Source: Branchiostoma floridae (taxonomy: Eukaryota > Chordata > Leptocardii > Amphioxiformes > Branchiostomatidae). From it: 64,000 nt of DNA. The notes below the pieces were generated by a model, which was given only the letters and a program-made list of their open reading frames with translations, had not been told where the DNA came from and did not search any database. The position numbers and the translations under genes are program-made. The stretch lies in the NCBI RefSeq assembly GCF_000003815.2, contig NC_049981.1, forward strand, positions 16,726,885 through 16,790,884. Reading direction: 5' to 3'. This document shows, piece after piece, positions 4,852 to 49,523 of the stretch (position 1 is its first letter; every line of letters begins with the position of its first letter).

Positions 4852-7800
4852 TCAAATCCCTTGATGTTTTTTATTCTCCGTGAAAAAGCTACGTAATACA
4901 ACCACCTGGCCAATGCCTACAAGAATGAGGATAACTGTTTGGGCTATCGACCAGTAGTTGACACGCTCGTTGAGGCTTTCTGCAAAAGCACGCCCCTGCG
5001 CCTCTCGTAGCCTGAAGTGTGTCTGGTAGTCGATGACGAGCTTCAGGTTTTCGTGGGCTGTTACGCACGATGTTTCCATCTGAAAAAAATGGTACAATGT
5101 TAGTTTTTAATCTTGCGACACCAAATATACAGTTAAAGAATCTGTCATTAACATTGCACATATTTGGTCATACTTTGCATCTGAAAAATGTATACATTTT
5201 GACCTAGGCTATAAAGGAGTTGTTTTTAAAATACTGTATTGTCTCGCATCTTCCACAAACCTGCCACCACTACCACCAGTCCACAGTGCCACCTAGCAGC
5301 ATTGGCCAAACTGCACCACCTTTGCACCCCTAGCGGCACATGGGCAGTCAACACTCAAAACTTGCACAGAATTCTAGAAGGGCAGTTCTTTCAGTGACAG
5401 GGAAAGCCTGAAAGGGACGTTTTTTTGGGTGGTAGGTTTGAGTGTTGATGGCCCCTGTTGCCATGGCAACATGCCACGTACAAACGTTGCTGCCTCGTGC
5501 AGCCAGGGGACAGGTGGCCCTGGTGGTGGTGGTGACACGCGGGGGTCCTCCATTTCAAAACGCAGCCAGATCTTTTTGCTGGTCACAATGGAAAACTTGT
5601 TCAGGAAACAAATGACTACATCAGTCCCAGACTCTGATGTCCACTTGTGCTCGCCTGACGTAGAGCGCACGCGTTTGAGAATCGGCTTAGCCTCCTCAAA
5701 CACGACAACATCTACGTCGTAGTTACCTCCCGCTAAGACCTGCACCGCGTAAAGAAGAAAACAAACATAAACAACACAAACAAAAACAAGCGAAGGACTT
5801 CAACAGATAGCAGTGACAGCAAAAGTTCTGTTTCTTTCCTAAATAGTTTTTCTAAATCAAATGCAGCTTTTTTCAGACTTAAGGTAGAAACTGAAAATAG
5901 ATTTGTAACTTGTATAATGTAAGCTGGCTTTTTTCGCATTTATCCTTCTCACTACACCTTTTGGACCAAAATCTGTACCGATTGCAGGGGTGGTCGGGTT
6001 GACTTTCTAGAAAAAAAACTGCAAGGGGAAGCAATGCAATGGAGCAGAACAATTGGGTTGGAGTTGTAGTACACCCTTCCAGGGTGTGGCAGTTTTAGGA
6101 AATTCTAAAATTAAAATGGGGCATTCTAAGGGACCGTACGGCATTTAGCGAGGGGGGAGGGCCGGTCGCCAGGGGGGGAGGGCCAAGCAAAAAAATATTT
6201 TGCCAGGGGGAGGGCCTAGCAAAATTTTTTTTACTTGGGGGGAGGGCCAAGCAAAAAAAAATAGCTTGGTCTGCCAGCAAAATATGTCCCTTAAAATCCA
6301 AGAAACGGCGTTTCAGAGGGCCAAGATTTCAAAATTTTTCTGGACCTCTGCAAGGGATCGCCCGAGGTTGGCGCTCGGGACACAGTGAAAATGCGAAAGG
6401 GAGGGGGCGGGGCTTAGGCATGACGCCCTCGAAAACCCTCTTCACGTACAGAAATGTTATTAAACTCTGTATTAGTCTGCCATCAAAATTTACCCCTGTC
6501 TTATTGCCCTCAAAATGTAAGAAATGGCGTTTCAGAGCTCGAGGGTAAATATTTGCAAATTTCCCTGGATCCCTTTTGACGTGACCGGCCTCGCGCCTTT
6601 GATGACCGACATCGTGATAATGTGTTTGGGGGGGATTTAATTTTGTATTTCTAAATTGAAATGCTATTTAAGTTAGCTTTGTTTGTCAACATCGTGATAA
6701 TGTGTTTGGGGGGGATTTAATTTTGTATTTCTAAATTGAAATGCTATTAAAGTTGGCTTTGTTTGTCAGCAAAATATCTCCTCAAACTGAAGGAAATAGC
6801 TTTTAAGAGGGTCAAGATTTCAAAATTCTCCCGGACCTACCTTGCGATTCTTCGTGCCTTTGGCGCCGAACATGGTGTTCGGAACGTCGTTCTCAAAAAC
6901 TTGAAACCCTCGTATTTTTTTTCATAGAAATGTCATCTAACCAGCAAATTTTCCCACAAAAAAAGCAATGCAGGAAATCGTGGCAAAAAAAGCGTGGCAT
7001 TTCTAAAATATCTCCTGCAAGTCTGCGGTCTCACGCCCGCCGGCGACCGATCTTACCCCGCCGTGGGAAAATCAGCGTCACGCGTCGGCGCCCCCCTCCC
7101 CACTACAGTTNNNNNNNNNNNNNNNNNNNNNNNNNNNNNNNNNNNNNNNNNNNNNNNNNNNNNNNNNNNNNNNNNNNNNNNNNNNNNNNNNNNNNNNNNN
7201 NNNNNNNNNNCCCCCAAAGAATGAAAAAAAATTCAAAATATATGTAAATTGAAAATACTTTCCGTCAAGCCGCTCAGGCCCGCGAGCTTGCAATACGTAA
7301 ATTTAGGGAGCGGGGCGCGCGCCGCTTCGTGGCGCAAATCTACTAGAAATCCAGGTACAAATGCTTTTAAGGTGTTGTTTTAATATCAAAACAATGAAAT
7401 AGCTTCTATAAAGCAAATATTTATGCCTCTATTAAGCAGATATTTTGAGCCATTCTGTTTTCCTTTTTTTACTAGGGGTGAGAGATCTGCTTCTCGATGA
7501 AAATCATGAAAAAGTATGATGCAAAGGACATTTCCGAATGCGGGAGCGCAGTGTTTTATTGGCGTCTTGAATATTTTTTTTCAAAGTTGATAGGAGGGGG
7601 GAGGGCCAAGCAAAAATATTTTGTCTTGGGGGGAGGGCCTAGCAAAAAAAAATTTACCTGGGGGGAGGGCCATGCAAAAATTTTTTGACCCGACCCTCTG
7701 GCAACCGGCCCTCCCCCCTCACTAAACGCCGTACGGTCCCTAAGGCTTCTTGAGGCGCAAAGTTTAGGCAGCTCACAGTTGAAGACTGTGGCCACATGGT

Positions 7801-9572
7801 ATTATCAATACTATTAGCATCCATTGTCAATCAGAACTGTCTGCTTGCCAAAGAATCTAGGTAAGGGGCACATGGTCAGGGTATGGGGACAGTGTGTCCT
7901 TGTTCCCAAAAAAAGGCAATAGATTAAAATTTAGGCAGCAGGGAGAAGAACAAGTGAAAAAAAAAAGTTTCTGCAATCTTTTGTAGAACAAAACTTCTAA
8001 AGCTGTCACAACTTTCTGTGGAATCCTTCTCGCTTTTTTCTCTCCTAACCGACCTGTGTCAGAGCTGTATCGTGGTCCCCCATCTCGGGTATCAATGGAG
8101 GTTCCTCCCCCACCATAAAATCAAAGTACACGGTCTTGTGTGTAAAGGTGGAGAACTCGTTGCTGAAACAGAACTTGTAGACGCCCTTCTTCTCGGACGT
8201 CCAGGTGTAGGTGTCGTACTGTTTCTTGATCTCCTTGTACAAGACCTTCTCGTTCGGGTCTGATATCAAACAGTCCACGTCATAGTGGCCACCTGTTACT
8301 ACCTAGACATTTACAATAGCAGAGAAGAGTCAGTACCGTTCGTGGGTGGGGGGGAGAGATAACATGACATGTGTTAGGTAAAAATTGACATAACTAAAAT
8401 TGCAAAGAAGTTTTGTTCAGCACAAAAATAATTCCTCGTTTTGTCAGGTGCTGTATTAATTCTTATTGCTTTCATATCATTTCCATCCTAGTTTTGGAAA
8501 GCCTGGCATGTTTGTAAGTTGTAACTCAAACTTTTAACTGCAAGTCAACATTTACTGGCATTGACAAGCATAGAAAATGGATAAATTTAGAAACAGTCAT
8601 TGACATTTTGGAAGAGACTGTTTGTTTGTTCTGTCAGTAGAGAGTAACCTCAGCACTCCCTAATACCAACTCAACATATGAAGAAACTATCATCATCATG
8701 CAAAAATAAACAGATCTTTTGGCATGCCCCACCATACACTGTTTGTCAGCCATTTGTAATATGAGCATTGATAGGCCAAAACAAGCGAATCAAACAAATT
8801 TGATATTAATACACAGGGCACCCCAATACCAGGGGTACTGTTTATCTAACTCTCATAGTCTCAGGCTGCCTTTATGGCAGGGTTGATATCGATGATGATG
8901 ATAATATCGAAAGACATTTGTGTTGCTGTGGCCCTGCGTGAGAGGATGGAATCATATTGCAACATCTCTACTACTTCATGATAAACAAATCTATTCAGAG
9001 TTGTGTTTTTTTGGCAGCGTGACCAGTCAAGTGTCATGAATATTTACAAATTTTCACATCAATATTTTGAATATTTATGACATCATCTGTGCTTCGTATG
9101 TTGTCACCAAGTACCGTGTATCCAGTGGCGTTTTCTTCTATTAAACAGCTCCTTGCTTTGTCCACAGAAATAATGATTTCAATCGCACTTCTTACTTTAA
9201 GATAGCAGGGATAAAACACACGCGGCCTAAAACGCCCCCCTCCCCTTCTAAAGGGATGACATGGCAAAGGTGGGGAGGGGGGCACAAATCACGACGTCAC
9301 TAGATACTATCATATCCATTTCCAGTCACTTCTTACAGATTCAAGAAAGCTACATGAGTATAGAATTGTATTCTCTATACAAGTATGTGATTTTACGTTC
9401 AGAAAGATGAAAAAATCACCTGATATTCCAGTGTACATTTAACGCCGGCATCGACATCTTCGTAGAAGCACTGTCGGTCGTTGTCGGCTAACTCGAAAGT
9501 CAGTTCCCCGGCTAAACTCACAGCGACGTAGCAGGTCAGAACCACCAGCCCCGCAGTCCACGGACCCTCCAT
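4852..9572 (-). CDS. TMED7: TMED3/TMED7-type p24 cargo receptor (transmembrane emp24 domain protein)
   Basis: Three constitutive coding exons are placed at 9420-9572, 8054-8302 and 4852-5079. All junctions are phase 0 with GT-AG ends, and together they encode 209 residues (human TMED7 is about 224). Residues 1-22 form a signal peptide. The GOLD domain follows, with the paired cysteines in QCFYED and KFCFSNEFS and the family motif GGHYDVD. The last exon holds the coiled-coil ([13 protein letters not shown]), one transmembrane helix near residues 180-200 and a short tail with FF and KK, the usual COPII and COPI sorting signals; the KK is not exactly at the -3/-4 position. p24 proteins cycle between ER and Golgi as hetero-oligomers and recruit cargo such as GPI-anchored proteins. 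An upstream in-frame ATG at 9662 lacks a good signal peptide, so 9572 is preferred. The paralogue could equally be called TMED3; amphioxus probably has one gene for both. See the alternative exon at 5482-5739. Confidence 0.9.
5482..5739 (-). CDS. TMED7: Diverged duplicate of the TMED GOLD-domain exon (probable mutually exclusive exon)
   Basis: This 86-codon open frame lies between GOLD exon 8054-8302 and the last exon. It starts after a CAG acceptor with a pyrimidine-rich tract and ends at a GTACGT donor, phase 0 at both ends, exactly like the 83-codon exon it resembles. It begins [10 protein letters not shown] against [10 protein letters not shown], keeps KWTSE and the disulphide cysteine in ICFLNKFS, and ends HEAATF against HDTALTQ. 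It differs in a proline-rich loop (SPPPPGPP) and in the strand that normally reads THKTVYFDF. Overall identity is roughly a third by eye. Because phases match, it could replace the first copy or be added without a frameshift. No separate first exon was found nearby, so a shared promoter is the simplest reading. A relic exon is possible, but the absence of stops and the intact splice sites argue against it. Confidence 0.7.
6611..6770. repeat. 80-bp tandem duplication
   Basis: Two almost identical 80-bp units, each with ATCGTGATAATGTGTTTGGG, lie inside the Harbinger-like element. They are recent, with only a few mismatches, confined to the second half. Confidence 0.85.
7111..7210. other. Assembly gap (100 N, probably a placeholder size)
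   Basis: Exactly 100 N, a conventional unknown-length gap. It falls inside the G-rich Harbinger-like element, the likely cause of the break. Confidence 1.
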
Positions 9573-10163
9573 CGGAAACTCTAGCGCTCCCGCTACAAGC
9601 AAACCGCGGGGAAAGAAGGAAATATTGTAGGGAACCAAAGAGCGAGAGGAGATGTTGGCCACATGAAAGGTGTAACAACCTGACGTGGCAGGTCAGGGAA
9701 GTCCCGGATGGGTGACCCCACGGCGCAGCGTGCTGCAGGTCTGTAAATTATCGTTAGAGGTCGCTATTGCACGGAAACAGGGTCTGAGGTTTACACATTG
9801 GAATTGACATTATAGTACAGTTTAATAAAGTCTAGTCTAGCCAATGCTGGTCAGCATGACCTGGATTGCCACTATGTATGAGAGCATTCAAATTGGTTTA
9901 ACGTTTCGTCTCTCTGATCTTCTTGTTCTTTGATGTTAGATATCCTGTTACTCCAGAAAGAAAAAAAGGATTGTCAAACCAGTTTAACTGACACTGAAAG
10001 CTACTGATGATGATCCACTGGTTGTGACATTACAGTATTTAACTAAAAGGTTTGTTGGACCAGGGAAATTCCCATAGCTCTTTCCAGTAAGTATAATGAA
10101 CAGTAGAGCACAGCTAATCATCTGATCCTATAAAGGCTGATGTGTTGAGTGAGCAACAACTGC

Positions 10164-15191: not shown

Positions 15192-18100
15192 TCAACCCAC
15201 CGTCCTAGCTACATCAGGTTGCTCTGTTGGTCCTTGATCAGGCTGGGTAGAGAGGTTAGGAAATAACGGCAAGTGAGAAACCAAAATAAAACTTTTACTA
15301 CAGTCTTGCAATGCTGATACTTAAATGCCATACTTAAAATGCCAGCTAAATTTTCATTCTCCTTTCCATGTTAAGAACAAAATGCTTGTGAGTAAAAATG
15401 GAATAAAAAAAGTTTCTGATCATTTTTCAATCCTTTATCAAAATAAGCTGCAGTGGTCTCTTTGTACATAACGAAGTAATAGCTAAATACTAACAATTCA
15501 CACAATTCTAACCCTGTCCCAGATATCATAGAAAGACTGTTTCAAAACACACAAAACGTTTAAGATTTCTCAATAAAATCATTTGGTATTGATATAGGTA
15601 CAAAAAACTTGAGTGTATTATTCCTCTTGTTCTAAGTCAGGACCCACAGTGAGCATATGGTTAAACATATCATATATAATACGTATGCAAACATCTCATA
15701 AATCATCGCTTCAAGTTAGTTGACTTGAATAACAATGTATCAAGTATAAAGTAAGTAAGTAGGTACTCACGAAGGGCGTCCGCTGGCCAAACTTGCTGTA
15801 GAAGGTGACGCGGACTTTCTTCCTGTGTCCGGTGCGCTGGTCGAAACACTCCACCATGTCAAAGGGTGGGGAGTAGAGGTGGAGGCTGACAGCAGTGTTG
15901 GTGTGACTGGTGTTCTCAACACGGTGCAGGCCCATGGAGTCTGGTAAACAGAGAGAAAATAGTCTTATTGTAATGGGGAAGATTTTTACTTACTCAACCT
16001 ACATAGTGTTAACCTACAGGACTGAGGCACCTGGTATAGCCTGCCATCAAGACATCACATTTCTTGTGAGATAGGGAAGAACAGACTAGAAACTGGATAG
16101 TGAGTGATTGAGTGGCTGGGTGGGTAGGTGGGTGAGTGAGAATTCCTACATCATGCCATGTACAACAAGTATCTAATCTATACTTAGTACACAGTATGTC
16201 ATATGTAAGTCTCAGTCTTCCAGAAGTAAAAACTGTTACTGTGAGGACAAGGAAATAATCCCCATGAAGTCCCTTACCATTGATGTATGCCACGCTGTCC
16301 TTTCCGTACGAGTGCGTCTCTGTTTTCTGGAGCTCCCGTTCATCCTCGGAGTCGGACGGCCACGAGTACATGGTCTCGTCCAGCTGGCCGTCCAGTACCT
16401 TCATGAAGCAGTGTGAGTCTGAGTGGCTGTGGATCCCACTGGAACACAAACACAGTGGTCAGCAGTAAACAAACACAAAAGATCTTTTTCCTTTTATACT
16501 GCAATACTGCATATTTTTTGAATACGTCAATCCTCAGTGTGAGTTCTGCTGCAATAATACAGTAAGCCTTTGTAAAAACCTAACAAAGATGACATGGTTG
16601 TACCAACCTTCCCTGGCCTTCTCCCCAGCACAGGACGATGAGGTTGAACTTGCCATTGCCCTGGTCCACCAGGTTACGGGTGTATCTGGGAAAACAAGAA
16701 AATTATGATCATCTTTCTGATTGAAAGGGATATTCATCACTGGGACAACAACGTATTATCAGGTATCATTCATCCTAGTTTTAACATAGTTTTAATGTAT
16801 GCTTTAAGACCATGTGTTTCTCACGTGGTATCACCAATTGTTTATGGCTCAGTGGGGGTTCCTTTATGTAAGACATTACAAAGCACAAAATATTATGAAA
16901 TCTACAAGTACAAAAGTTGATAACAACCTTGTACCATCCTCATTTAAGATTGTTAAACCAGTGACCACCTCAAAAAAAGAATCACCTGGCCGTTGATACA
17001 CAGTCAAATCCGTAGTGACCACCTCTATATAAAGACCACCTGCTCATTGATAATGATATACAACTACTAGTAAACCTGTACTAGTGACCACCTCTGCATA
17101 ATGAATGAATGAATGTGAGAAGACCTTTATAATTTATTGTACATTTTTGCCCATCTGAGCTAAGACAGGTCACATGTTAACAAAGTCAATCAAAATTTAC
17201 ATGAATACATCTGGGTATATACATCTTAATGTCTCACTTGAATTACTAGACTTAAGTCAAGTTAGATGTTAAGATGTATCTACATGTATCTAAATCTACA
17301 CAATTTCTTTCGATATAAGGGATACGTGGCCAATGTGACCACTCTTTCATGACACTGATCCTTAAATTCTGAACTATACTAATTGATAATGACTAGCCAT
17401 GGCGCATATCAATGGTAATGCAGTTGTCACCATTGTTAGATAAAGGTTGTGTGAACATTCCATGTAAACTAAGTTAGCATTTCACAATTGTATCTGCCCC
17501 CTGGGCAGTACTGGAGCCTGTATTTATTGTGGACTGAGTGTCCTGTTTTGAACATTTAAAGTTCCGGCTTGCTGTTTCAGAAGTGCCGCAATAAATGGCT
17601 TTCAACGAGACATCTGTATTTGAACAGGACTTGTCCGAGTGCTTGCACAATTCATGTAGGTGCTGACTGAGCCAAGTCAAAGGGTCACGTAACAAACGTA
17701 CATACTCATCACCCTGACCAATGGGATAATAGGATTCAACACAAGCTGACCAATCAAGAGAGAGGATCCCAGACACACCCACCATTAACTGGGCAGAGTA
17801 CAGCAGCATTTCTTGTCACTTTAGATCTCTGTGTTTGGTTTAACCAAGGAGGCTAAAATATGTCCTTGGTTTAACTAAAGAAATGCTGATGTGGCAGTTT
17901 TTTTTTGCTTTGAAGATAAAAACTAAAATGACCATACACATACACAACGAGTAAACAGTATTCTTCTGTGGCCGTCAAATTACCTGTTTGGAATAGAAAC
18001 AAATTTTGAAAACCTTTATAAATGAGTCCAAAAAAATTCCAATAACTTCTGCAGCAAATTTTCTTGTACTTTGAACATAAGACAGCTATAATACAACTAT

Positions 18101-19567
18101 AGATTATAGATTTTGATCATCTGGAACTTATAAAATAATGGATTATTTTGTATGAAATACTCCGTGTAAGCCTCCGTCTACCTTATATTTTCAATTAAGA
18201 CTCTTTAATCAGTTTTTGCCAAGCAAGTGACAAAAAAAGGTCATGTAGTTGAGAGAATGGAGTAATTACTAGTAACTACAGGGTCTTTACATAACCTCTT
18301 AAATAGGTCCTGAACTAAATACCTTTGTTTTCAAGACAAAAGGCGACACGTCTTGTGTCTGTCATAAGACCACCCCAGGGGTCCTCACGCTTTTGTGGAC
18401 GACCTAAATCACGAGTTTTATTTTCTCACTCATGTGTGGAAATAAGTAAAGACAGCAGTCTCCAGCTTTGAATTTCTTCCGTCCCAATCATAATGTGTAT
18501 GGTATCCAATGTTGTTTATTTCTGATATAAAATTTGTCATTTTGAGCTAAAGAAAATCTATTTTACACTGATTTAAGTTCACATTCTTACATTTACATTT
18601 TCAGCCTCAATTTAGGCCCGTACAAATTTCCATCCCAGGACGGAGGGACAGGTCCTGGAGACAGGCATACACTGAAACCATAGATTGTAGACTGGCTAGT
18701 GTCCAACCAGGAAATATATCAAGTACGAATTCATCATCCTCAGGTAACAAAGCCAAAAGATGCTTTTCTTGCCGAAGACTACTAAATTTCAGAAAGACAA
18801 TGATCAAGGCAGTTTTGTTGTCTTTTTTTGTGGTGGATTCTTCAACTGTATCTGAGGGCATCCTATAAGTATATTATTATATTTCTTGTCAGAACATAAA
18901 CTTTGCCAAGTATGAATAAAATTTTGGACTAATATTACCATCATATCATTATGACGTGCAAACTGTTACATAGAAAAAGTAACTAATAGAAAGGCACACA
19001 ATCTTAAGTCTCAGGGATACAAAAAAATTACTTCCTGTCTGATACAGCCATCCAATAGTAACACTACTGTCACTAGCACAGACTTCTGGCGTTCATGTCT
19101 CAACAGTGAAGATTAAAATAACAAATGTTTTTGGAACATTTCCAGAAAATCTAGAGAAACAGTAAGCAAACCTAAGTTGGCTTATACACTTCCACACTCG
19201 TACTTTTATTCTGAGTCCTCTAAATGGTCTAAATTCTAGAAAAGCCTAGTTAGAAAACCGCTTCATGTATATTAAATTCCTTGCTTGGTAGATTGTAAAA
19301 TTTTACCCTAAAATAGGAAGAGAGATGTTGATTTTACCTGTGATGGTCGAACTTGGCGTACTTGTACCACTCTCTCGGATTGCTCTTGTACTTGGACATG
19401 TACTCGTTCACCTCCTCCACGCTAATCTCGTTGTCCTGGAAGATAATCTTCAACCCCTGCACCAGATCATCCAAGGTTTCAGGTTCAGGGAGGGGGTTCT
19501 GATCGCGTTTCTTCTTCAACATCTCGTCGATGGCGTTCCCGCGCTTTTCCACGTCCATTTCTGCCAT
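15192..19567 (-). CDS. CDO1: Cysteine dioxygenase type 1
   Basis: Coding exons are 19338-19567, 16608-16685, 16278-16438, 15771-15940 and a likely terminal exon 15192-15242. They join in frame to about 229 residues (human 200; the extra length is mainly at the N terminus). CDO1 is a cytosolic cupin that oxidises L-cysteine to cysteine sulphinate with non-haem Fe(II). The iron-binding histidines are visible in [10 protein letters not shown] and GLHRVEN. The cysteine of SHC and the tyrosine of [10 protein letters not shown] can form the Cys-Tyr cofactor. The substrate arginine is in [14 protein letters not shown]. The first AUG (19567) is followed three codons later by a second possible start. 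The last exon is weakly supported: exon 4 ends at a good GTGAGT donor after RTPF, and the best phase-0 continuation encodes [16 protein letters not shown] and stop. Human CDO1 also has a short unconserved tail there. The first intron is about 2.65 kb. Confidence 0.93.
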
Positions 19568-35400: not shown

Positions 35401-38400
35401 CAATCTGCCTGCCAACACTTTCCTAAGAACACATAAAAATAACAATTTTCAAAAGGTTTCAATACTGACTGAATGTAAAATATAATGCTATGGATAAGGT
35501 AGAGTGAATACATTAAGTGGGTGATCCAGTTTAACTCACTGAAGAGCTATTCTTCTACTGGTTGTACAGTGAACAGTTGACCTGTCCTTATTGTCTTAAA
35601 TGCAACCATTTCTGTGGCCAGTAGCATGCATGGCTGTTGAGTGACAACAGCCAATATTCAAACTTCCGATGCTTGATCCAGAGGAAGTTCACTTAAAACA
35701 CTGGACAACATAATGTACACACAACAAAGGTTGGAGATCTTAGAAACCAACCTGGTTCTTTGATATCCAGTCCACTTCAGCTGATTTAACAGCAGTTTGG
35801 ATGGCCTGAGCTCTCTCTGTAGCAGACTGGGTGGACCAAGCATCTTTCTCTGTAGCCAGGAGTCGATGAAACTCCTCCTCCTTATCATTAGACATAAGAG
35901 GTGTGGGGGTTAATAAATGATGGATGAGTTAAGGACAGAGTGAAATGAAGGACTGTGAATGAAACTGCACATGGCAGCACCTTTTGTTTGTATAGTATTT
36001 TTCTTTTTTAAGGCGTGCACAGCCAAGAGACTACTTCTGGGCACTGAACTTAGTTGGTGGGAGATAAACATGCAGGGATAAACAAGTCCACTAGCCCTAT
36101 AGTCCCGGGCAAGTGAAAATGCCAATCGGGCAAGTGCATGTCCTTCCCCACTTGCCCAATCGGACAAGTTAGCTTTTCTCCATTGAGTGAGATTTTGATG
36201 TACTTGCTACTTTTCAAAATCATGACATCAAGCATTGATTAACACAGAAAATAGAGCCAATAACAAAAATTCCATTGAAGGCCATGAATGTACATAGAAA
36301 AATATCATTTAGATTTCGGGCAAGTGAAAAGTTGGTTCGGGCAAGTAAATTTTTTAAGTACTTGCCCGATAGGACAAGTCAATTTTAGAAAACTTGTCCA
36401 ACCCTGAACATGTATATACCAGGAGATGGCAGTGAACATTACATCTGAAAGCTTGTGAGTGTATTCAAGAGGAAAACATGTCAGAAAGAGAATTGTGTAA
36501 TTTTTTAGTCCATGGAAGCTTTCTTACCCTGTTCTCAGCTGCCTCTTTGTCCCACTCTGCCTTAGCCCTGACCAGCGCCTCCCTGATGGCTGCCTCCTGC
36601 TGCACCTGCCACTGCTGTTTGGCTAGAATGTCCAAACAAAGAAACTTTAATACTCCAAATGTTGAATAATGGAGACAGGTGTTGAATGGCACCAAGACTG
36701 AATGCATTGACAGTGAGAGGAAAAATATTTCTTCTAGCACAATGCAGCCACATACTCTCAAACCAAATCTTTGGCCGTGAGGCATCATCAAAAGCAATAA
36801 TAAGTCACCTAATGCACATGGGGTTTTCACTCATCCTTTGCAATGTGTGAGGTAAAAGTGAAGTCAATGATGTGTCAAAGAATCCTAGATCGCATAGAAC
36901 AGCATTCATTAACAAGACAGTGTCATTTAAGTATATAATATGCTGTTAAACATTGAGTGGATTGAGTATCAGAATATCCTACATTCATTAGTAATTGAAC
37001 ATTACCACCAATAAGACTCAGTGTCTGAGACCTATGTGATTTTACCTTGTTGTAACCTTTCATCAAAGTCTCCCTCAGACTCGACCTCGTGCCGTGCCAG
37101 CCACTCCTGCTCTGCTGCCTTCACAGCAGCTTCGATGGCTGCCCTCCTCGCCTGGCTCTGTTCCTCTACCCACTCAACCTTCGCCATGGCAACCTGCAGG
37201 GAAAAAATCCAGTTTCTTATTACATCCAGGAAATAAGATACACAATCCAAATTAGAAGTTACTCAAACAACAGCAGAGATTCTGTAAACAGCCAGTCACA
37301 AATGGTCAGACGTTTAGTCGCTGACAGTCAGATGTTATAGTCGCTGACAGTCAGATGTTATAGTCGCTGACAGTCAGATGTTATAGTCGCTGACAGTCAG
37401 ATGTTATAGTCGCTGACAGTCAGATGTTATAGTCGCTGACAGTCAGATGTTATAGTCGCTGACAGTCAGATGTTATAGTCGCTGACAGTCAGATGTTATA
37501 GACAGAGTCCACTATCCTTTGTCTGTGAGTCAAGGAAGATAGCGGATTCTATCTGAAATGTCTGACCGTTTACAACCCTATCCATGTGCTTGAGTGACTG
37601 TTTTATTGTGCAGTTTCCTACTATCTTCATACTGACTTCTAAGCGACAGGTCTTTCCTTGACCAACAATTCCCCCTTAAATGCAACAAATTTTCTTTCTA
37701 CCTTTGTTTCTATTTCTCTTCTTGTCTCCTCTTCTTGCTCCCTGGACCACTTCTCCCTGACAGTTGCCATGGCAACCTTATGACTGTCCTCAAGGTCAAT
37801 CTTAAGACTCTCCAGGGCATCCCACTTTTCCCTCACACATTCCTTCTGAACCTGCAGACAGAAAATGTGTTTATGTGTTTGTTATTCTGTCTCTCTGATT
37901 ACCCTAAAAGTTAAACCAACCTGTGCAAGTTTTGTTCCATCTTTTACATAATGTTCTACATTGACCAATTGTATTACACTTGAAAACACAGGGAAAAATG
38001 CAGGGAATACTGACAATCAAAATTCTTCATAAGCCCATAATCTCCAAGCATATTGCTTTCTAACTACCCAACTTTACTCTGACAGTTGCAGTGACTGGCT
38101 GTCATTAGTAGCTGGGCAGTCAGAAATTGTCACAACCTTCCCCCTATCATTTGTAAGGGAGGTAATAATTCTATGCTTTTCTAGGTTTTCCAATACATTT
38201 CTAGGTCCATCAATACTTTTCTAGGTCTTTTCACAACTTTCTAGGTCTGAAAACATCATTTTGGAAAGCATGTACAAATTGTTTTCTCCTCAACTTTAAC
38301 CAAAACTGACCTGTGCAAGTTTCTGTTCCATCTCCTTCATATGTTCCTCTCTCAGTCTGTCTGTCAGTGAGTCCTTCTCTCCACACACCTGGATGTAGTC

Positions 38401-41400
38401 CTCCTTCACTCCATCAAGCTGCTTTAAGGCTTGGTCAAGCTCAGACCTTAAACATTAAAGGTATTGTGAGCTCTAGCGATAATTGCTATCTCGATTCATA
38501 GAAATGACCACTGTCTTTTCATTGGAATCTGCTGAAGGCAGACGACTGTAAATTGAAAAACATTTCATTTTTGTGTTGGAACAAATACATTGTACTAGCT
38601 GTTTACTGGAAAAAGACAGAAGTTGTATTCCACATTCTTCATTTAGAAGTAAATCAATTGAATACGCTTACTGGATGTCTGTGACCCTTTTCTCAAATGC
38701 CTGCAGATCAGTGTTCCTCTGCTCAGCATACTGCTGTTCTAGCTCCTCCCTCAGCTTGTGGCTGGAGTCTTCATGTAGCTGGAGACAGGCTTGCTGGGCT
38801 CTGATGGAATGAAAAATTATACAATCTTATACGATTGAACTTTTATGTCAAAATCACATACAGGTTCTAATCATTCCAATCATTAATCATAGCAGTAAGC
38901 ATTTGAAAAAAAAAACCTCAAGGTCCCTAACAATGGACAAATTCCAATGTCTTCTTATCATAACGGATTCTCACTCCCAACCATCATGGTCCAGAGGCAG
39001 GGTTGCTAACCTCTGTACTACACACACTACAGTGTAGAAATGACATGACTTACTTCTCTACAGCCTGAGTCTTGTCCTGGTCAAACTCAGTCACCATCTG
39101 TGCCATGTCCCTTTTCAGCTGCTGGTTCAGCTCATTCAGCTGTTCCTCACTCGAAGAAACCTCCTCCAGACGTAACTTCACATCCTGACGGAGATCACAA
39201 ATGTTACAGACACTTACATTCCCGAAAAAAGCACAAAAACTACAACACAAAATACACGTGTGGCACTGCGTGGCCTATAGGCTCTGAATGTGAAAGAGAT
39301 GATGTTATCTGGGAAAAGGCAACTTCCTCACTGTATCTATGGTGAAAGCAAGAACCATGCTTTGGCTATGGACATCCTTTCAAACGGGACGTACTGAAAG
39401 AATGCACATATGTTACAGCTGACACTTAAATTCTGGTGGATAATCTGGCTTCAGCTATGGATGTCCTTACAGATGATTCAACGTTGTTTGTTTCAGAGTA
39501 CAAGATTCTGAACTAAGCCTAAAACTAAAAGTATAAACAAACTTTATGGTAAAATAAAATATATCCTGTCCCTTTGGACAGGAATATACATTCAGACAGT
39601 TGTAAATAAATCTGTATGGTATGTTTCTGACCTCATACTCTAAGTCTAAGGTGTTGTACTGGTGTCGCAGGCCATCCAGCTCCTTCTGTAGTCTGTCCAA
39701 TCCTGCTGATGACCCGCCTGGTACAGACAGCTCCAGGTCACGCTCCAGACTCTTTATTTTCATCTGTCAGAGAAAATATGAAAGATATATTAAATCACTT
39801 TTTAATTTGCAGAGAATTAAGTTTAAGGAGAAGGCATTGGCATTCATTTTGTTTATTTATAGAGTTTGCAATGAGTTTAAATAACATAGTTAAGACATTC
39901 AGGGTGTGAGGGCTCAGTGTAAGAAAATTAAGTATAAAACCACAGTGAATATTTACAGGTTGATGGCAAAGAAAAGAAGATGTTACACCTAGCTCTACTG
40001 TTCATGTAAAAACATGTTATACTATGTTCATCCATACATCATTCAAGAATGACATCTTCAATATTCTTTGGATAAATTTGACATTCAAACAAACCAAAGA
40101 ATGGTTCAGAATCTCATTCAGCACCAAAATGATTCCAACCTTAGACTTACCTTAAGAAGTGACGACCTTAGAGACTGAATTTCAATAGTTTTTAACAACA
40201 GCTCAGCTTCATTTTCCGGTATGCTCTCATCTATGTCTATCTCATCCAACATTCTGCACTGGTCTTTTCGAAGTTCAATCTGACTCCTACCATGAAAATA
40301 TAGCAGTTCTCCTTTGCTTCCCCTTTTAAAAATTTTGCCTTTTTTTAAGTTTGTCAAACTGCTTGAGTAACTCAGAAGAGCTGTCCTGAGCAAAATATAC
40401 TCTACACAATTTGATTTAGAAAACCAAAAACTCCTTTTGAGGACTAAAGTAGGTAGATCTTGAGACTAGTAAAATTAATCAAGGCAAGAAGAGCATAAAA
40501 GTTATTTCAGAGGGACTGAACATTGAATAAACCACTGGACGGTTTTAGGGCGTTATTTAGCTTATTCAACACTGCCTACTGAATTACAGGTTTACAAAAC
40601 ACACCTTCTCTTGTTCAATGACATGGTTACACATTACAAGTTTGAACTGTCTTTAAAAGTGTTTCACAACTGGATAACAACAAACAGTTGCTTGTCATGG
40701 CTCCCTTAAGCCTGATTACACAAAACAAAACTGTCTAGACAAAGAATCCGACAACTGGCACACACGGGGCATAGATAAAGTATCTCTTAATTGTTTGTAA
40801 AGTCTTTAGACTGAACTTTGTAGGGGGTCATTTCCTGAGATTAGGCTGACATGAATAGCTGTAGGAATACCTGTGTTGCTAAATTCATGAACTGGGTTTA
40901 CTCAGGTTCAGTTTGGGAGAGCAGAAAGAGAATGTGAAAAGATTTAACTAATTTTACTCCCTACAGTCAGTGAAAGGTCCAAAGTGTCCAAAGTGTCCAA
41001 AGTGTCCAAAGTGTCCAAAGTGTCCTGCTGATGACATTTACCAAAGGGGTACAGTATATGATTTTTCCTAACAGTTATTTTTTTTCAAATAAGACCTTAC
41101 CTGCAGTTCACTGCCCCTTCTCTCAAATGACTGCCCAAATGAATCACATGTTTGCTGTATACATTTAAAGGAAGATTTGAGTTGCTGATTTTTTGTTCAA
41201 TCATCATCTCACCTCTAGGTCATTGCCCTTTCTCTCGGAGGTCTCCGCTCGAGCCTTCCAGGTCTCAAGGTCAGCCTTCATGGCGCGGAGGTCGCCCTGC
41301 AGCCTGGTCACCTGACCTCGCTTGGAGCGGTTGGTGCTGAGGGAACGCTCCAACTCTGCCTTCAGACCAACCACAACCTCCTCTGGGCTTAGGTTCTCAC

Positions 41401-44400
41401 AAACATTGGGTCTGGAGAAAAACAAACTTTTTAATTAACATGGTGGTACAAAGAAGTGTGTGCTCAAATGGCAAACTATGAAATAAGTTTTAGTATCTAA
41501 AGAGAGGACCAATTTTGGAAAAAAAAAAAGCAAAGTTATGGTAACATTGATCATTATTTTCATTTGGTACACTAACAAACAACTATAAAAAAAATACACG
41601 TTTGTTGAAGTTTGTCCTAAAGACAAAAACAAGTACTAGTATATCTGTGTATGTAACTCTATGGCAAAGCGCATAATACTACGTATTAGTATTACTAAAC
41701 TATATAAAGTATGTTTTTCTGTTTCACCTACAATGTAGTCCAAATAGAGGGTATGAATTACTTTATGTAGCTGAAAAGACACTATGGTATTATATTTCTG
41801 AAGCTATCAGCAATACAAAGGATCTGGCCTTTCTGTCTCATTTGCCTACATCTTCTATCTCAAAATCTGCACCTGTGAATCTTCGGAGTTTTCCAGTCCA
41901 GGTCCTTCTTGATGCCCAGTTGAACGTAAGAGTCAGAGTGGGAGTCATTAGGAGGGGTGGCAAAGACTCCAAACTGGGCAGCATTCTCATACATCTGCAG
42001 CTGCTCTTTCAGCTCTGTTAGCTCATCCTGTAACACATCGCAACATTCAGTTAGGTTGTGTTCACATCCTCCTCATACCTCAGCACATAGGTATGCCCAT
42101 CTTTCTGTTTCTGTAACACCTGCGCTACACAGTTATACAGCTTTAGCAGCTGTCTGCTGACAAATGTCACTGAAGTGGTTGTTAAGGCTAGTCTAAACCT
42201 ATGTCTATTCCTGACAGTCGCTATGTGCGGTAGCACACAGTAGACTCTCTCGCAAGTAGCAGTAAGTGCCATTTTTAAATACATTTTTGCTGGCCATCAT
42301 TATTGATGTTATTTAAGGGACAAAACATCAATAGCATATAAGCAAAATCTATTTTCAAAATTGTTACTTCCTACACACGAATCAACAATAGTTACCTGTA
42401 GAGCCTGGTACATTCCCTCACTCAGCGCCTTGCTGGTATTGGCCTGCTGAAGCTGGATCTTCAACTGGCCAATTTCCTGAACTGTTCCTAAAAAAACAAA
42501 CATCAATGACGCAATTAAATGATATATATAAGAAACATGAATAGCTTTGAGCTGATTTTAAGACTATCTTGTTGATTCTGTAAGTACCTTTGATATATCT
42601 TGGTCCACCTACTTGGATAGCCTTTCAGCACCACACAATGACCTACAACAAATGTGACCAAAACCATATCCAGTTGCTTGAGTAACTACTTCTTAGCGTA
42701 TCTTATTACCTGGATGTCTAACCTACATCGACGTGACTAAAGCAATGCTATACCACCATACATAGTTTCAGCACATTGGTTAATACTTGAACAGTCTTCT
42801 TTGGTACACAGCCTTCCTTTATTCTTCAGCAAACCTGTCTGTTGTTTTCATTAGTTGACAAGACAATGTTCTATATCATACCTGTTTGTAGTAGCTCTCT
42901 GCACTGTTTCTGACTGTCCTCCAGACTACGAGTCAGTCGGTTGATGACATCTGCCCTCTCAAACTGAGCCTCCTCAGATGCCATTCTGGTCTCCTGGATT
43001 TCTCTCTGCAGTTTCTCCACGTGCTCTCTCTAAACAAATCATAAACAACATTGACTTTATTTGTTATCCTTTATTTCTAAACATTAACACGATACAACAA
43101 GTGTCATTTTGGTCATGTACAATTTGCATGTGCATGTATGTATAATTCCAGTCTTTACAGTCACAGGCATTGCAAATTCCTCTTAGGAAACCCAGATTAT
43201 TTTCCTTCATTCCACTCACTATGCTGCTTCTGCCAATAGACTACAAAGCAGTACTTTCAAAAACAAGACTCCTTAAAACAGTACCTTGCCATTGTAGTGA
43301 TAATCATATTGACACATGACAGGATTGAAGTCTTTGTTTTTTGGAGAAAACGTTGTTTCACAAAAGGAGCAAGGGAGAGCAAAAGGAGAACAAACCTATT
43401 GAGAAGTGCAATCTTGCATGAATAAGGAAAGTATAAGATTGTTAAAAGATTCTGTAACTGTGACTTGCCTCTTGTTCCAAAGCTGCAGCTGTCTCGTCCA
43501 CTTTTTCCTTCAACTGTAGCACCTCCTGCTCGTAGCGCTGCTGTATTGTGGCGACCACGGCTTGGTGTTGGTCGCGTGCACGGCTCAGCGACTCCGACTG
43601 TCCTAGGTCCATCAGTTGCTGGTTCAAACTCTCGATGTTTGACTCAGCTGACTGAAGCTTCTTCAGCAACTACAAATAAAACAGACAAGAATTAGTGAAT
43701 TTATGAGAACCACTATTTTCATGTTTTGTCTGGAAATCTGAATAATTTCTATCAAGGAAATTGCTTTGTCAACAACTCATAATAAGAATACTGTAAATGC
43801 AGAAATGTTCGCGTTGAATTAATGTTCGCGGTTTTCGCGGCGACCGCTTCACTGCGAACTTAAATCCATCGCGAACATTTTTCTATTAAGGTATTAGACT
43901 GCAGTCGATGGTGTTACAAAATCAAAACCACCGCAAAAAGTCATTTTTCCCGCTACCGCGAAATTAAATCCCTGCAAACTTAAATGCATTTACAGTATAC
44001 TTATGCGGTCAAAAATCCAACATTCTTGTAGAAAGCATGAATGATACAGATCTTCTCTACAGAATGCAAAGTTAAAGGTTCTTTACCCAGCCTCTCAACT
44101 CTTGAAGTATCATGATATATTTTCTTTGTCTGATTTATAATGACATGATTGTGCAAATATGTCGAGATTACTATACTTTATCCGGCTTTAGATTTACTGT
44201 TTCTACCTCTGGGGTCCTGGGGGCCATTAATCCATTTCATTTTACGAAAATCTTACAATATAGGGGCTCTAACTAAAAAAAAAAAAAAAAAACAGCCTGA
44301 CCTCCCCCTTGCCTGTCTCCGCTGCCTGTGCCCATGTTTCTGCAGCAGACACCCTCCCCTGTAGGGTCTGTAGTTCATCCTTAGTTTCCTGTAGGAGCTG

Positions 44401-47400
44401 CTGACACTGCTGTAAGCTGGCCTGCATACCGTCCTTCTCACCTGCAGTATGGAAGGCAGAAGAATAAGCAACGATCAGCTTTTGTCTTTCTTTATTGAGG
44501 TCAGTGTCATGGCATTGGTGTGCCATATGCTATCTGCCCCCAAAGTTGTACCATTGGAAGAGGTACACAATTTTTGTTTGCAGTATATCATGCATTATGA
44601 AGATCCATGAAAAGCTTCTCAAGTTCTGCACAATCATATACATCTAAAAACTAAATAGTTCAACTGAAAACATCAACTTGAACTTCTTGATGAAGGTTGA
44701 ATTGCCTAACTACAGCTAAAAGCAAGTTAAAGTACCAAGAAATCCAAGGCATGTTTTGCCACCAAGTTGATGACTGAGCATCCTGCATACACTAGACATA
44801 CAAACAGCTATCAACCATCATTCTCTACTCAAATGGCTAAAAGCAACTGTTACAGTACAAAGAAATCCAGACCACCTTTAGCCAGAGCGAGTTGATGACT
44901 GAGCACTCTCTTCTCGCGAGCAGAGTCCTCCCGCAGCATGTCCAGCTGCTGAGTCAGCTCCTCCAGCTTCCTGCCTCTGGCCTTGTACAGGATCTGCAGC
45001 TGTGCCAGCTGTCTGCCATCTCCTGCACCTGACAGGGAAGACATTGGTAGTAAACTTATACAGTTATACTTGTAAAGGCCAAGACTGCAGACCATTCTCG
45101 AAAATAAGTCTGTAAAACGTTGCAGTTTTTAACTTTTCATTGAACTTTTAATTGTTTTTCAATTGGATCCTATCGGTCCTCTGAATTGTTGTCTTAGGCT
45201 TTACATGTAGCTGTATTTAGACTTACATGTATAAGCCTTAGGGTGTTTTTTTAATATAATAGTCTAGATTATAGAACACTATTCCTACTTTATTAGAAAC
45301 ATATCACACAGGATCTTATAACAAATCCAAGGAAGTTACTAGTATTTCTGTAGTGTTAAAAATGTTTCACACACAAGTGTGTAATAGGTTATATTGGTAA
45401 GAGTCAGAGCAAAGTTACAAAGAAATATTCCACCATCTGTAAAAGAGAATAATTGTTATAGACTGTCTTTACTAGCATGCAGATCAAATCAAGAAATTAT
45501 GCTGTCAAGGAGGAGGGAACAGCAAAAAATCTTCATGCCTCTGCAGAATCTTTGCCACCAATGTTAGACATATAAGTGTTATCCTCAATTACCTTCAGAG
45601 AACAGCTTTGGTGAGCCTAAGGTAAACAATAGAGTAAAATATCTTAAGTTGAACAATCATGTCACCTGCTTCATCAAACAAAGTCGAAGATAAGCTAAAA
45701 TCCAAGCTTAAAATGATTACTAGTATTAATTATCATACTTTTCAGTGACAGATTGTTACATGATTGTGTAATCTACTGACCAGAATCCAGGAATTCTTTC
45801 TGCATCCTGTCAAACTTGTCCTCCTGAACATCCACTCCGTTCTTTGGTGTCACATCATTCCCATCATGCTCCTCTCCCTGGTCATGAACTTTGCTGTACA
45901 CGACCTTGTAGTCTTCTAAGGAATGGGACTATGTTGGTGGGGGAAAAGTACAGTTAGAGACCCAGAGATTTCGAAATAAATCAAATGTCCAGCCTTTTTG
46001 AAACTGTAGGGTCAATGTCATCCCTTGCCTTCCACTGTCCTTTACTTCCCCTGCTTAAGTCAGGTACCCATTTTGCAAATGGGTGGAGTGAGGAAAGTCC
46101 CGTTAAGTGTGATTTATACTAAAATTTATAGGACATGATGCTTAGCCAACAATACCAGGAATTAAAAACTGTTAACCACTGTCAGAAATAAACTAGTCTC
46201 TTCTACAGAAAAAAAAAGGTTCAAAACACCACAAAGCTATCACTGAAGATTGTTGCACATGATTTACTGACACTCACTCAGTATCCAGTTTATCAGTTGC
46301 CATCAAGTCAACATTATTGTGCAAGCATGTCTAACCCTCACAAAATGGGGAACAACAGATCGTAAACTGGATAGTGAGTGTGAGTGTATGATGAGTGAAC
46401 AGAGGTAGGACCACTTACATCTTTCATCTGTCCTCCTGGGGACACCTCTCTCACTCCTTCTGGAGGGTACTTCTCCTGCCTGTAGGGGTAGCCGTAATCA
46501 GCATTCTCATAGCCCCCATGGTAGCCATTGAACTCCTGCGGGGCTGGCTGCCCGTCCCCGTTGTTGCCATGGTAATAGCCGTGACCGTAGTTCTGCTGTA
46601 AGTGGTACTGATCATTACCATGGTAGTGGCCATTTACGCTGCTGCAGTCGTCCGAGTTAGTGGCACCGTCGATTTCACCACGCTGCTGGTAATCAAAGGC
46701 TCCATGCTCATCCTGAAACATAACAGAAGATAGTAAGTAATATGAAAATCTCATGATCAGTGGAAGATTAAATCAATTAGAATCAACTGTACGTACATTA
46801 AGTTCATTGGACTGAATTGAGATCTTCACTTTGCCTTCACTGAACTTTACAACACTGCATAAACTTACAGCATGGCCGTACTGTCCTGGCTGTCCCTCAT
46901 ACTGCCCTTCCCAACCTGCCACTTGTGGGTAGCCGTTACCATGGGAACCATGTTCTATGTACTGTTGGGACGGGTAGCCTCCATTGCTATGGTAACTGTA
47001 CTGGTCGGGATGCTGGTACTGTCCTCCATTCATTCCAGTCTGTGACACAAAACACATAAGGTGAAAAATGTTAATTAAAAGTATTATGCAAGGATCATGA
47101 ATATCTCATTTGCAGTTATAAATGCTTCAAAGTGTCCAACAACTACCCTTGCAGTTCCAAAGAAAGTTGGCAGGGACCCCAACTTATATTACCGTACTTC
47201 TTCCTGAGTGCAACGGCTATATACTGTTAGTGCTTAAAATAAACCATGTATTAATAGCATGTGCAAAACATGCAATTACTAGGTTCAGACTAGGTCACTA
47301 TAGCTAGAACATAATTCACAACATTCAAGTTTTTATGATATTACATCTCATTGTTGCCATCTTATCCTCACCTGATAGTCCTGGATGCCCCCAGGGGTCT

Positions 47401-49523
47401 TGAGCGGAGGTGCGTTTGTCCCTACCATGGGGGTTGAGGTGTACAGCCCTCCCCCACCCTGCTGTATCCACTGCTGTTCAGCCTGCCATTGTTTAAGCCT
47501 GAAGTACATGTATAATACCACACAATGTAAAAAGACCTACACTAAGTCTTAAACCTTTTTCTAGATTTATAATTTAACATATATGCCTCCTAGTATAGAT
47601 TTACTGGAACACATTTTAGCCTTCACAGGGCTCAAAATACTGGGTGCATGTGCACCCAGGTGCACCCAAAATTGGAGCTGTGCACCCAATTTTTTTCTGT
47701 GGGTGCACAGGGTGCACCCAAATATTTTTGACGTTTATGTATGTAAAGATATCAAAGTATACTAGTATACATCATATTCTTGACATCTAAGTGTTAGAAA
47801 GATAATAAAAATGTCTGTCATGGTACTTGCTTAAGAACTTGATAGCTTGTAACTTTATTATTAGGTTATTACTTAAGTTTAAGTAGTGCACCCAAATTTT
47901 TTTTGGTGCGCCCAATTTTTCAGGCTACGTGCACCATTGCACCTAATCCCAAAAATGAATTTCGAGCCCTGCTTCAGAATACAAGACTATCCAAAGGTAG
48001 TTTGTACAAAATTGAATTTCTGAACCCTTTCAATACCTGAGGCTCTATGAAATATTCATGCAGATTATATTTTCTGTTTTTTTTCCCAACAAAATTGGCT
48101 GTAGATGACGTGTCTTGCTTTAAATGTTACTGGTTAGCTGGGCACACCTGGCCTGGTGAGTCTCACAGCCAAAGCGAAAAACAAATTAACAAACGTTATT
48201 GCCATAATATGATGTACAATACTGGTAATAAACTGTCACTGTCAGCTATTTTGAGAATAACAGACTGAGTTTATAATACAGGAAATCTCGAAATGTTTGG
48301 AACAGCTTTATTTCTGTGGTTTTCACCATGACCTCTCCTGCACAAATTCATCACGCTGCAAATATGCATTTCCATTGTATCACTTATAACTCACAGTACT
48401 ACGGAATTACTTCAACAGTAAAATTAGATTATGCAGCTGAGAAGCCTCTTCTTCTGCAAAATCAAGTCACCAAAAGAAGAAATACAGTTAACAGAACTTG
48501 AATAAAAAGTTTATGTGTGATAGTGGTTGACCTTTTCACAGATTTTTTAACTTGAAAAAGATCATAACTGACTAAAGAGCTTAATTTTGTGTATGAAAAC
48601 ACTGCATAAAATCTGCAGTCTTAATCATTAATGATTTTACAGTATATACCTTGGCCTTTTGTCTCTGAGCATGTCAGTGTCAGACATGCGCCCACTGTCT
48701 GAGAGACGTCCGCTATCTGACAGCGATGAAGCTGACGCGCTGTCATCGTCCAACAAGTCATCAGGGAGCTCTGCTGACAGGAGAGCTCTCAACTGCCAAA
48801 CAAGGGAAACATGAAAACTCAGACACAAATGCACAAGGAACAGTACATTTATGAGATTGAAAGAATAAACAGCAAAATTAACGTCATGGCAGAAATTACT
48901 AAATCTTAATGGTGCTATTTCCACTTCCGTCTAAAAGTACAAATTAAAGAAAATAATCTGCAAACATTAAAATAATAAGAATTTAGACAGTCAAAAATGT
49001 AAGCAGAACATGTTCTAAACATATGGTGTGACCAATAAAGTTGGCATTTAAACAATAAAAAAAATCAAATTACTGTTACAACAGTAGTATAGTTAATAGA
49101 TAGGGTCTTAAAGGGACTACAGGAAGAGGGTAGAAGACAAAGAAATATAAAAAAGATCTATATCAATTTAAAATACACTGACAACATTCATACCACACAC
49201 ACACACACACACACAGATTTACAGTACCTGATCTGCAAGTTTTGAAGTGACCCATTCTTCTGGTCATAGCAAACATTAATCTATAATTATCAAGCACCGC
49301 GTCAAGGGTGTCCATACCAAGGACTTCAAATTACAATGTGTGTCCTTGTCCATACCTTGTGAAGAAGTTCCTCAATCTCTTGTACCTCTTCCACTTCTAC
49401 AGGAACACTCTCTGTGCTCCCCGTGCTCTCCACGTCCGATTCACTGCCCATCACACATGGCCGCTCCACGGGCAGGCTCCCTGTGCTATCGCTGTCCAAC
49501 TCATCGCCCATCACACGCACCAT
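29564..49523 (-). CDS. CEP152: Centrosomal protein of 152 kDa (PLK4/CEP63 scaffold)
   Basis: Thirty-two coding exons can be joined with compatible phases and splice sites into 6216 bases, about 2071 residues (human CEP152 is about 1650-1710). Matches to the family run along the whole length. They include an acidic N terminus with AELPDDLLDDD, a central coiled-coil with QQLMDLGQSESLSRARDQH and NRLTRSLEDSQKQC, a C-terminal helical block with GRKLRRYYLQCLHQLLEE, and the final QQDSGIDSP. In animals CEP152 forms a ring at the proximal mother centriole with CEP63 and CEP192, binds the PLK4 polo boxes through its acidic N terminus, and starts centriole duplication. Exons are listed in the five block entries below. 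Two introns use GC donors. The start at 49523 is the first ATG of an acidic exon; an upstream non-coding exon is likely but not located. Splice choices for exons 14 and 15 are the least certain. Confidence 0.93.
32780..37193 (-). CDS. CEP152: CEP152 exons 21-28: tryptophan-repeat coiled-coil
   Basis: Exons are 37046-37193, 36528-36622, 35752-35880, 35270-35422, 34539-34706, 33752-34069, 33114-33349 and 32780-32917. Most carry one or two copies of a motif like A-x-x-x-W-x-x-E-Q: VEWVEEQ, QEWLARH, QQWQVQQ, AEWDKEA, DAWSTQS, VDWISKN, SKWMSEQ, QEWEKEQ, AAWEKEQ, QTWEQDQ, EIWERER. Human CEP152 has several such motifs in the equivalent place, which supports the model. Exon 28 ends at a second GC donor (CTCAG then GCAAGT). 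Confidence 0.85.
36073..36406. mobile_element. hAT-like non-autonomous element in a CEP152 intron
   Basis: The ends are CAGGGATAAACAAGT and, on the other strand, CAGGGTTGGACAAGT. The interior is rich in CGGGCAAGT and its complement. The six bases AACATG occur just outside each end. CAGGG termini are typical of hAT elements, though an 8-bp target repeat is not clean. No coding frame. Confidence 0.6.
37315..37498. repeat. 23-bp minisatellite, eight copies
   Basis: Eight perfect or near-perfect tandem copies of a 23-bp unit (TAGTCGCTGACAGTCAGATG plus TTA) lie in the CEP152 intron between exons 20 and 21. The low divergence implies recent expansion and likely length polymorphism. Confidence 0.95.
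37702..40279 (-). CDS. CEP152: CEP152 exons 15-20: second coiled-coil block
   Basis: Exons are 40151-40279, 39632-39763, 39054-39184, 38672-38800, 38311-38446 and 37702-37851. Recognisable family segments are RDMAQMVTEFDQDKTQAVEK (human QMRQMVQDFDHDKQEAVDR) and SELDQALKQLDGVKEDYIQV. The acceptor of exon 15 was chosen as CAG before ATTGAACTT because the alternative TAG one step upstream would break the frame. Exon 20 begins the series of tryptophan-containing repeats (REKWDALE, REKWSREQ) and contains a perfect GTTGCCATGGCAAC palindrome coding VAMA. Confidence 0.85.
38965..39023 (-). repeat. Second copy of the tRNA-derived SINE-like fragment
   Basis: The minus strand reads AGAGGTTAGCAACCCTGCCT then GGTTGGGAGTGAGAATCC, parallel to the copy at 10164-10232. 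It lies in the CEP152 intron between exons 17 and 18. Confidence 0.4.
40978..41022. repeat. 9-bp tandem repeat (TCCAAAGTG)x5
   Basis: Five consecutive TCCAAAGTG units, in the CEP152 intron just downstream (in transcription) of exon 14. Confidence 0.9.
41101..45928 (-). CDS. CEP152: CEP152 exons 6-14: first coiled-coil block
   Basis: Exons are 45781-45928, 44876-45028, 44302-44441, 43469-43669, 42882-43029, 42396-42487, 41873-42027, 41213-41411 and 41101-41154. They encode heptad-rich sequence that lines up with the human protein, including LAQLQILYKARGRKLEELTQ, the conserved QLMDLGQSESLSRARDQH, NRLTRSLEDSQKQCRELL and SYVQLGIKKDLDWKTPK. Exon 9 (43469-43669) ends at a GC donor (GAG then GCAAGT). 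Exon 14 is only 18 codons, and its end (FERRGSELQ) resembles the end of exon 13 (SERKGNDLE). Confidence 0.85.
43791..43995. mobile_element. MITE with CTGTAAATGCA termini and TA target site
   Basis: The 205-bp element has inverted ends CTGTAAATGCA and TGCATTTACAG, each flanked by TA, as in Tc1/mariner-type insertions. The inner part contains CG-rich words such as GTTCGCG and their complements. It lies between CEP152 exons 8 and 9. Confidence 0.75.
46419..49523 (-). CDS. CEP152: CEP152 exons 1-5: acidic PLK4-binding N terminus and Tyr/Gly-rich region
   Basis: Exons are 49356-49523, 48650-48792, 47372-47498, 46869-47039 and 46419-46712. Exon 1 has two related acidic segments (MGDELDSDSTGS and MGSESDVESTGS). 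Exon 2 carries the conserved AELPDDLLDDD and then a serine/aspartate-rich stretch with two close SDSGR repeats. By homology this is the part that binds the basic face of PLK4 polo boxes. Exons 4 and 5 (57 and 98 codons) are strongly enriched in Tyr, Gly, His, Asn and Gln, for example NYGHGYYHGNNGDGQ. The human protein is also Tyr/Gln/Asn-rich here but less extreme. Confidence 0.85.
47626..47971. mobile_element. hAT-like non-autonomous element with GTGCACCC repeats
   Basis: The ends are CAGGGCTCAAAATAC and, reversed, CAGGGCTCGAAATTC. Both subterminal regions repeat GTGCACCCA. The short direct repeat CTTCA flanks the ends (47621-47625 and 47972-47976), shorter than the 8 bp expected of hAT. It lies in the CEP152 intron between exons 2 and 3. 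A lone similar end (TTTCGAGCCCTG) occurs near 54561-54573. Confidence 0.6.
49194..49215. repeat. CA dinucleotide microsatellite
   Basis: (CA)11 between CEP152 exons 1 and 2. Confidence 0.95.

Follow-up and report, generated by a model that had tools for sequence, protein, structure and literature searches.

A lancelet TMED-CDO1-AP3S-CEP152 cluster that probably keeps a small piece of pre-vertebrate gene order

Four genes, TMED(-), CDO1(-), AP3S(+) and CEP152(-), lie side by side in a 64,000-nucleotide stretch of chromosome C3 of the lancelet Branchiostoma floridae. This stretch (C3:16726885-16790884), hereafter the window, is numbered from its first letter; C3 is 34.2 megabases (Mb) long, in a genome of 513,431,437 bases and 431 contigs. 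The linkage of TMED, CDO1 and AP3S is no accident. Linkages of this kind are familiar, and the history of this one is less simple than first proposed. We consider it probable that an ordinary lancelet chromosome keeps here a small piece of the gene order that preceded vertebrates, that human 5q22-23 and 15q are copies of a fused chromosome, and that the bond between CDO1 and AP3S owes its tightness to a shared promoter.

The gene order and strands were read from exons by frame and splice sites, and Pfam, PDB and tblastn matches confirmed all four genes where the original prediction had placed them, from the end of the TMED stop codon (4852) to the first base of the CEP152 start codon (49523). 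The features are as follows, with a slash marking the exon boundary.

4852..5079, minus strand: TMED exon 3; coiled coil, membrane span and tail; CAG/ acceptor, stop TGA.
5482..5739, minus strand: TMED exon 2b; diverged tandem copy of exon 2; CAG/ acceptor, T-rich tract.
8054..8302, minus strand: TMED exon 2a; remainder of GOLD; phase 0 on both sides; TAG/ acceptor, CAG/GTCGGT donor.
9420..9572, minus strand: TMED3/7-like exon 1; signal peptide and GOLD start; start codon, CAG/GTGATT donor.
15771..19567, minus strand: CDO1; four exons (19340-19567, one within 16583-16702, 16279-16440, 15771-15941).
19568..20201, no strand: CDO1/AP3S divergent gap; 634 base pairs (bp) between start codons; candidate bidirectional promoter.
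20202..27152, plus strand: AP3S; exons 20202-20270, 21484-21573 (+2 bases), 23119-23229 (+1 base upstream), 24006-24077, 24366-24473, 27045-27152.
29567..49523, minus strand: CEP152; about 20 kilobases (kb); 3'-most open frame (29567-31078) placed by position only.

The joined TMED gene matches Pfam EMP24_GP25L with an expect value (E) of 3.8e-52. There are at least 22 TMED exon matches in the genome, among which exon 3 of the window gene is the best (E=2.9e-15); one TMED3/7-like gene lies on C3, and divergent gamma-like genes lie on C1. CDO1 matches Pfam CDO_I (E=1.3e-66) and, in the PDB, cysteine dioxygenase type 1 best (E=2.9e-77); its last exon was not found. AP3S (AP-3 sigma) matches Clat_adaptor_s (E=2.7e-49), and its top PDB match is AP-3 sigma-1 (E=1e-100). 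CEP152 is recognized by six colinear tblastn pieces against a human sequence and by CC_CEP63-bind_CEP152 (PF25770), a match split between two frames, of which the larger piece scores E=8.3e-9 and the second 0.0015, which is below the cut-off; the top PDB match of its first two exons is CEP152 itself, a weak one at E=0.34.

We take the human order and strands on 5q to be TMED7(-), CDO1(-), ATG12, AP3S1(+), and by this arrangement lancelet TMED, CDO1 and AP3S keep both the order and the strands of 5q. TMED3 is likewise taken to lie on human 15q. The original prediction had made neighbours of TMED7, CDO1, ATG12 and AP3S1 on 5q and had put TMED3, AP3S2 and CEP152 on 15q. Published intervals bear out the gene content on 5q and the position of AP3S2, while order and strands on 5q and the positions of TMED3 and CEP152 are taken as background. 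A passage of PMC10379344 has 5q22.1q23.1 hold TMED7, CDO1, ATG12, AP3S1, FEM1C, TICAM2, SEMA6A, LVRN, TNFAIP8, DMXL1 and DTWD2. AP3S2 appears with ANPEP and SLC28A1 in the 15q25.2q26.1 interval in a passage of PMC5485587.

The cluster resembles the human 5q-15q paralogon, which is part of the extended major histocompatibility complex (MHC) paralogon (1/5/6/9/15/19; lancelet groups C and L), in that both contain relatives of TMED3/7 and AP3S1/2, with CDO1 on 5q and CEP152 on 15q. It differs in that two markers of the paralogon, TNFAIP8 (one match) and DMXL (three exons matching at a single locus), are found on C2 and not on C3. Thus neither of the two other paralogon members tested shares a chromosome with the cluster, which suggests that two or more ancestral groups were joined in each human region. 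The passages of the literature at hand describe the paralogon as a product of early vertebrate duplication, and one of them (PMC1215479) reports 5q-15q paralogy for TNFAIP8 (called SSC-S2), DMXL and others. In a passage of PMC13143021 that names families and not chromosomes 5 or 15, the TNFAIP, SEMA6, LMN and FBN families stand around TRPM genes. Passages of PMC7269912 describe a C-L fusion that is present as a paralogous pair, chicken Z as mixing linkage groups C and L, and lancelet BFL2, 3 and 4 as each coming from two groups, BFL2 being of C and J ancestry. The placing of TNFAIP8 and DMXL on C2 and of the cluster on C3 agrees with these statements.

Based on these observations we propose the following history. 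The group to which the cluster belongs, probably linkage group L, would have fused in the vertebrate line with group C, which carried TNFAIP8 and DMXL, and the second genome doubling would then have copied the fused chromosome to give the 5q and 15q regions. The 15q copy would have lost CDO1, and the 5q copy CEP152. CEP152 was probably in the same ancestral linkage group, surviving on 15q.

The space between CDO1 and AP3S offers a likely reason for their tight linkage. The 634-bp gap has a CpG observed/expected ratio of 1.28 versus 0.41 for the whole window, and among 614 N-free windows as long as the gap, taken in 100-base steps, one reaches that ratio and overlaps the gap. A single TATAAA occurs in the gap, at 19815 on the CDO1 strand; the AP3S strand has none, and there is no CCAAT on either strand of 19568-20201. 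A passage of PMC6292497 puts 25% of neighbouring lancelet genes (3,950 of 15,884) in bidirectional promoters and states that, of 372 ancestral bidirectional promoters, the majority have been lost in vertebrates. Like those ancestral promoters, the CDO1/AP3S gap is CpG-rich and short and separates genes that stand 5' to 5'. It differs in its one TATAAA, on the CDO1 strand, and in that ATG12 lies between the human pair. The CpG-rich divergent gap and the frequency of bidirectional promoters in the lancelet make it likely that the two genes share one divergent promoter, and selection would act against their separation. ATG12 would either have come between them in the vertebrate line or have left in the lancelet line. 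A human ATG12 fragment found no match (best E 0.22) across the window and 160 kb of its flanks, the left 80 kb of which holds 9,440 N.

The relation of lancelet TMED and AP3S to the vertebrate copies was examined by identity and by trees. AP3S1 is as close to the lancelet protein as to AP3S2 (83.9% in both cases), and lancelet AP3S and AP3S2 are 79.6% identical. TMED3 and TMED7 are 71.6% identical to each other, and lancelet TMED is 64.1% identical to TMED3 and 67.8% to TMED7, figures that favour the history proposed. For the TMED trees that the original prediction had called for, human TMED1, 2, 5 and 9 were taken from the PDB and the lancelet paralogues from the genome, and human TMED3 and TMED7 were added. 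A tree of 12 rows, which leaves out the partial or very divergent paralogues C10, C180, C1:18408 and C1:21146 and human TMED4, 6 and 10, places the window gene in one group with TMED3, TMED7 and two divergent genes of C1, without resolving the branching among them (68/95). The lancelet gene falls with TMED3 and TMED7 in this tree and in one of seven rows described below, and neither tree, each of few rows, recovers TMED3 and TMED7 as a sister pair. The TMED-like exons on C10 and C180 are fast-evolving and perhaps belong to lancelet-specific p24 genes.

TMED has a second exon 2. Exons 2a and 2b are homologous, adjacent and of the same phase, and each has its own splice sites; they are 34% identical over 62 residues, and 2b keeps the conserved GOLD cysteine. 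Two phase-0 donors are available to exon 2b, 5481 (TTT/GTACGT), which gives 86 amino acids against the 83 of exon 2a, and 5538 (CGC/GTGTCA), which gives 67. In the 67-residue form, exon 2b alone scores 26.9 bits against EMP24_GP25L (cut-off 25.9), and it is also found in the genome-wide TMED scan, as the last of the 22 matches listed. It is thus probably an alternative, mutually exclusive exon that would replace half of the GOLD domain. It is like known mutually exclusive tandem exons in phase, near-equal length, adjacency, divergence and possession of its own splice sites, and unlike them in the 100-N gap that lies between 2a and 2b and in its shorter length if the 5538 donor is used. A search for further copies of TMED exons 1 and 3 across the window and 160 kb of its flanks gave nothing clear (best E 0.35 besides the known exons), and this makes it unlikely that exon 2b belongs to a second gene, although the 100-N gap leaves some room for one.

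Related GC-rich repeat units with a 32-base period extend over 6098-7801 on both sides of this N run (7111-7210), and they may be the cause of the assembly break there.

A bolder reading joins the second exon to the promoter. The lancelet TMED3/7 gene would make two p24-gamma proteins, unlike in half of the cargo-binding GOLD domain, by choosing between exons 2a and 2b, where vertebrates obtained TMED3 and TMED7 by genome doubling, and a shared promoter, interrupted in vertebrates by ATG12, would hold together the CDO1-AP3S core of the cluster. We offer this tentatively, as a possibility suggested by exon and promoter structure. An alternative TMED exon in amphioxus was not found in the open-licence literature, which is a weak negative.

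The original prediction saw in the cluster the unduplicated ancestor of an ohnolog pair from the two rounds of vertebrate genome doubling, so that one block would have given both human regions directly, without a fusion of two groups. In favour of this simpler history, TMED and AP3S members occur on both 5q and 15q, while CDO1 is known from 5q alone and CEP152 from 15q alone. The prediction is partly supported, as the 5q-15q paralogy is published and the 5q order is kept. The direct step from one block to two regions is doubtful, since both published paralogon members that were tested lie on C2, away from the cluster, and we regard the simple version as unlikely. Two observations weigh against our own reading as well. 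When TMED1, TMED9, C4, C11 and C1:11034 are also left out of the tree, the remaining seven rows put TMED7 outside a group (95/97) that joins TMED3 to the window gene and to a very long branch from C1; at face value this opposes a sister relation of TMED3 and TMED7, and the sequences at hand would neither prove nor refute that relation. The other is that CEP152 ties to 15q at the level of the arm only.

It may be, then, that the linkage of TMED, CDO1 and AP3S is old and real while the adjacency of CEP152 is due to chance and its human location a coincidence of one arm. Human CEP152, which we take to be on 15q, presumably lies tens of Mb from TMED3 and AP3S2. Against chance stands an SLC28-type gene on C3, about 25-32 kb beyond the right end of the window; its type is represented in human on 15q25 and, we presume, on 15q21. 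According to a passage of PMC7269912, order within linkage groups is largely scrambled, which favours chance. On balance we find such a coincidence rather improbable, if somewhat less so than the simple version is. An artefact of assembly is far less credible than either. The window has two N runs only, 2083-2655 and 7111-7210, and the second, a run of 100 N in the TMED intron between exons 2a and 2b, is the sole gap within the cluster. The span 7211-64000 is free of N and holds TMED exons 1 and 2a, CDO1, AP3S and CEP152 in one piece, that is, parts of all four genes. In addition, a meiotic map was used to check the published assembly according to a passage of PMC7269912, which counts here provided that it is the same assembly. 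Misassembly, which the original prediction had named as a possible refutation, is thus very unlikely, and descent of the cluster from one of two groups that later fused is the history we retain.

The surroundings were examined by a codon-usage scan and Pfam over 80 kb on each side. The left flank holds a Kelch gene, recognized by eye, an ABC transporter, a leucine-rich-repeat gene and a metalloprotease whose nearest match, a weak one, is ADAM17; the right flank holds the SLC28-type gene, a sodium-nucleoside transporter, and a PLAT-domain gene. Five of the ten flank pieces put to Pfam have no family at E up to 0.01. Human ADAM10 is presumably at 15q21, and reading the metalloprotease as ADAM10 was dropped as support for 15q, its best PDB match being ADAM17 (E=7e-4). 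The Kelch gene as KLHL25/ENC1 was dropped by eye. Among the flank genes SLC28 alone strengthens the 15q link.

AP3S carries partial copies of its own exons.

21114..21483, plus strand: partial copies of AP3S exon 2 in a tandem array upstream of the full exon; three are clean, a fourth is decayed.
25560..25604, plus strand: 45-nucleotide copy of the beginning of the final AP3S exon; in frame, with acceptor and AAG/GTTTCT donor.

Tandem Repeats Finder reports the array as 21162-21530 (period 89, 4 copies, 92% matches). The 89-base unit consists of the first 45 bases of exon 2, the acceptor and a GTTT-rich tail, and a GTTTGT is a possible donor; the decayed copy has no acceptor. The clean copies could in principle serve as in-frame mini-exons, and the copy number of the array is perhaps variable. 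The copy at 25560-25604 is diverged, with 28 of 45 bases matching 27045-27089. Two inverted repeats in AP3S introns, at 20775-20879 (50-nucleotide arms, 92%, 5 nucleotides apart) and 21730-21973 (34-nucleotide arms, 97%, 176 nucleotides apart), resemble non-autonomous DNA elements of small size.

Pfam searches in six frames over 49.5-64 kb and 1-4.85 kb, with E up to 0.1, turned up no other domain genes, though genes of very short exons could escape; one match to a bacterial family, below its cut-off, was ignored. Pfam coverage of 29.5-44.5 kb was of two of three minus frames. Rfam and transfer RNA scans of the window gave no matches. An open frame at 56853-57137 (plus strand) has a cysteine pattern resembling the second half of an IGFBP domain; it has no Pfam match, and its nearest PDB match, IGFBP-5, is weak (E=0.32). 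By eye only, the end of another open frame at 55834-56169 (plus strand) resembles the 3' end of the reverse-transcriptase frame of a long interspersed nuclear element (LINE).

The four-gene block was not found in the open-licence literature, a weak negative, as genome-wide tables would contain it. The details new here are the 634-bp CpG-rich gap, the diverged TMED exon 2b and the partial AP3S exon copies. The cluster is a small and mostly expected relic, a micro-example of local gene order kept for more than half a billion years, and a case in which the two human regions seem to have been copied from a fusion of ancestral groups and not from one group. A promoter in the CDO1-AP3S gap would be a testable explanation of why the pair stays close together, and TMED exon 2b a testable instance of variety by splicing where vertebrates have duplicate genes. 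If true, one need would have been met by splicing in lancelet TMED and by gene duplication in vertebrates.
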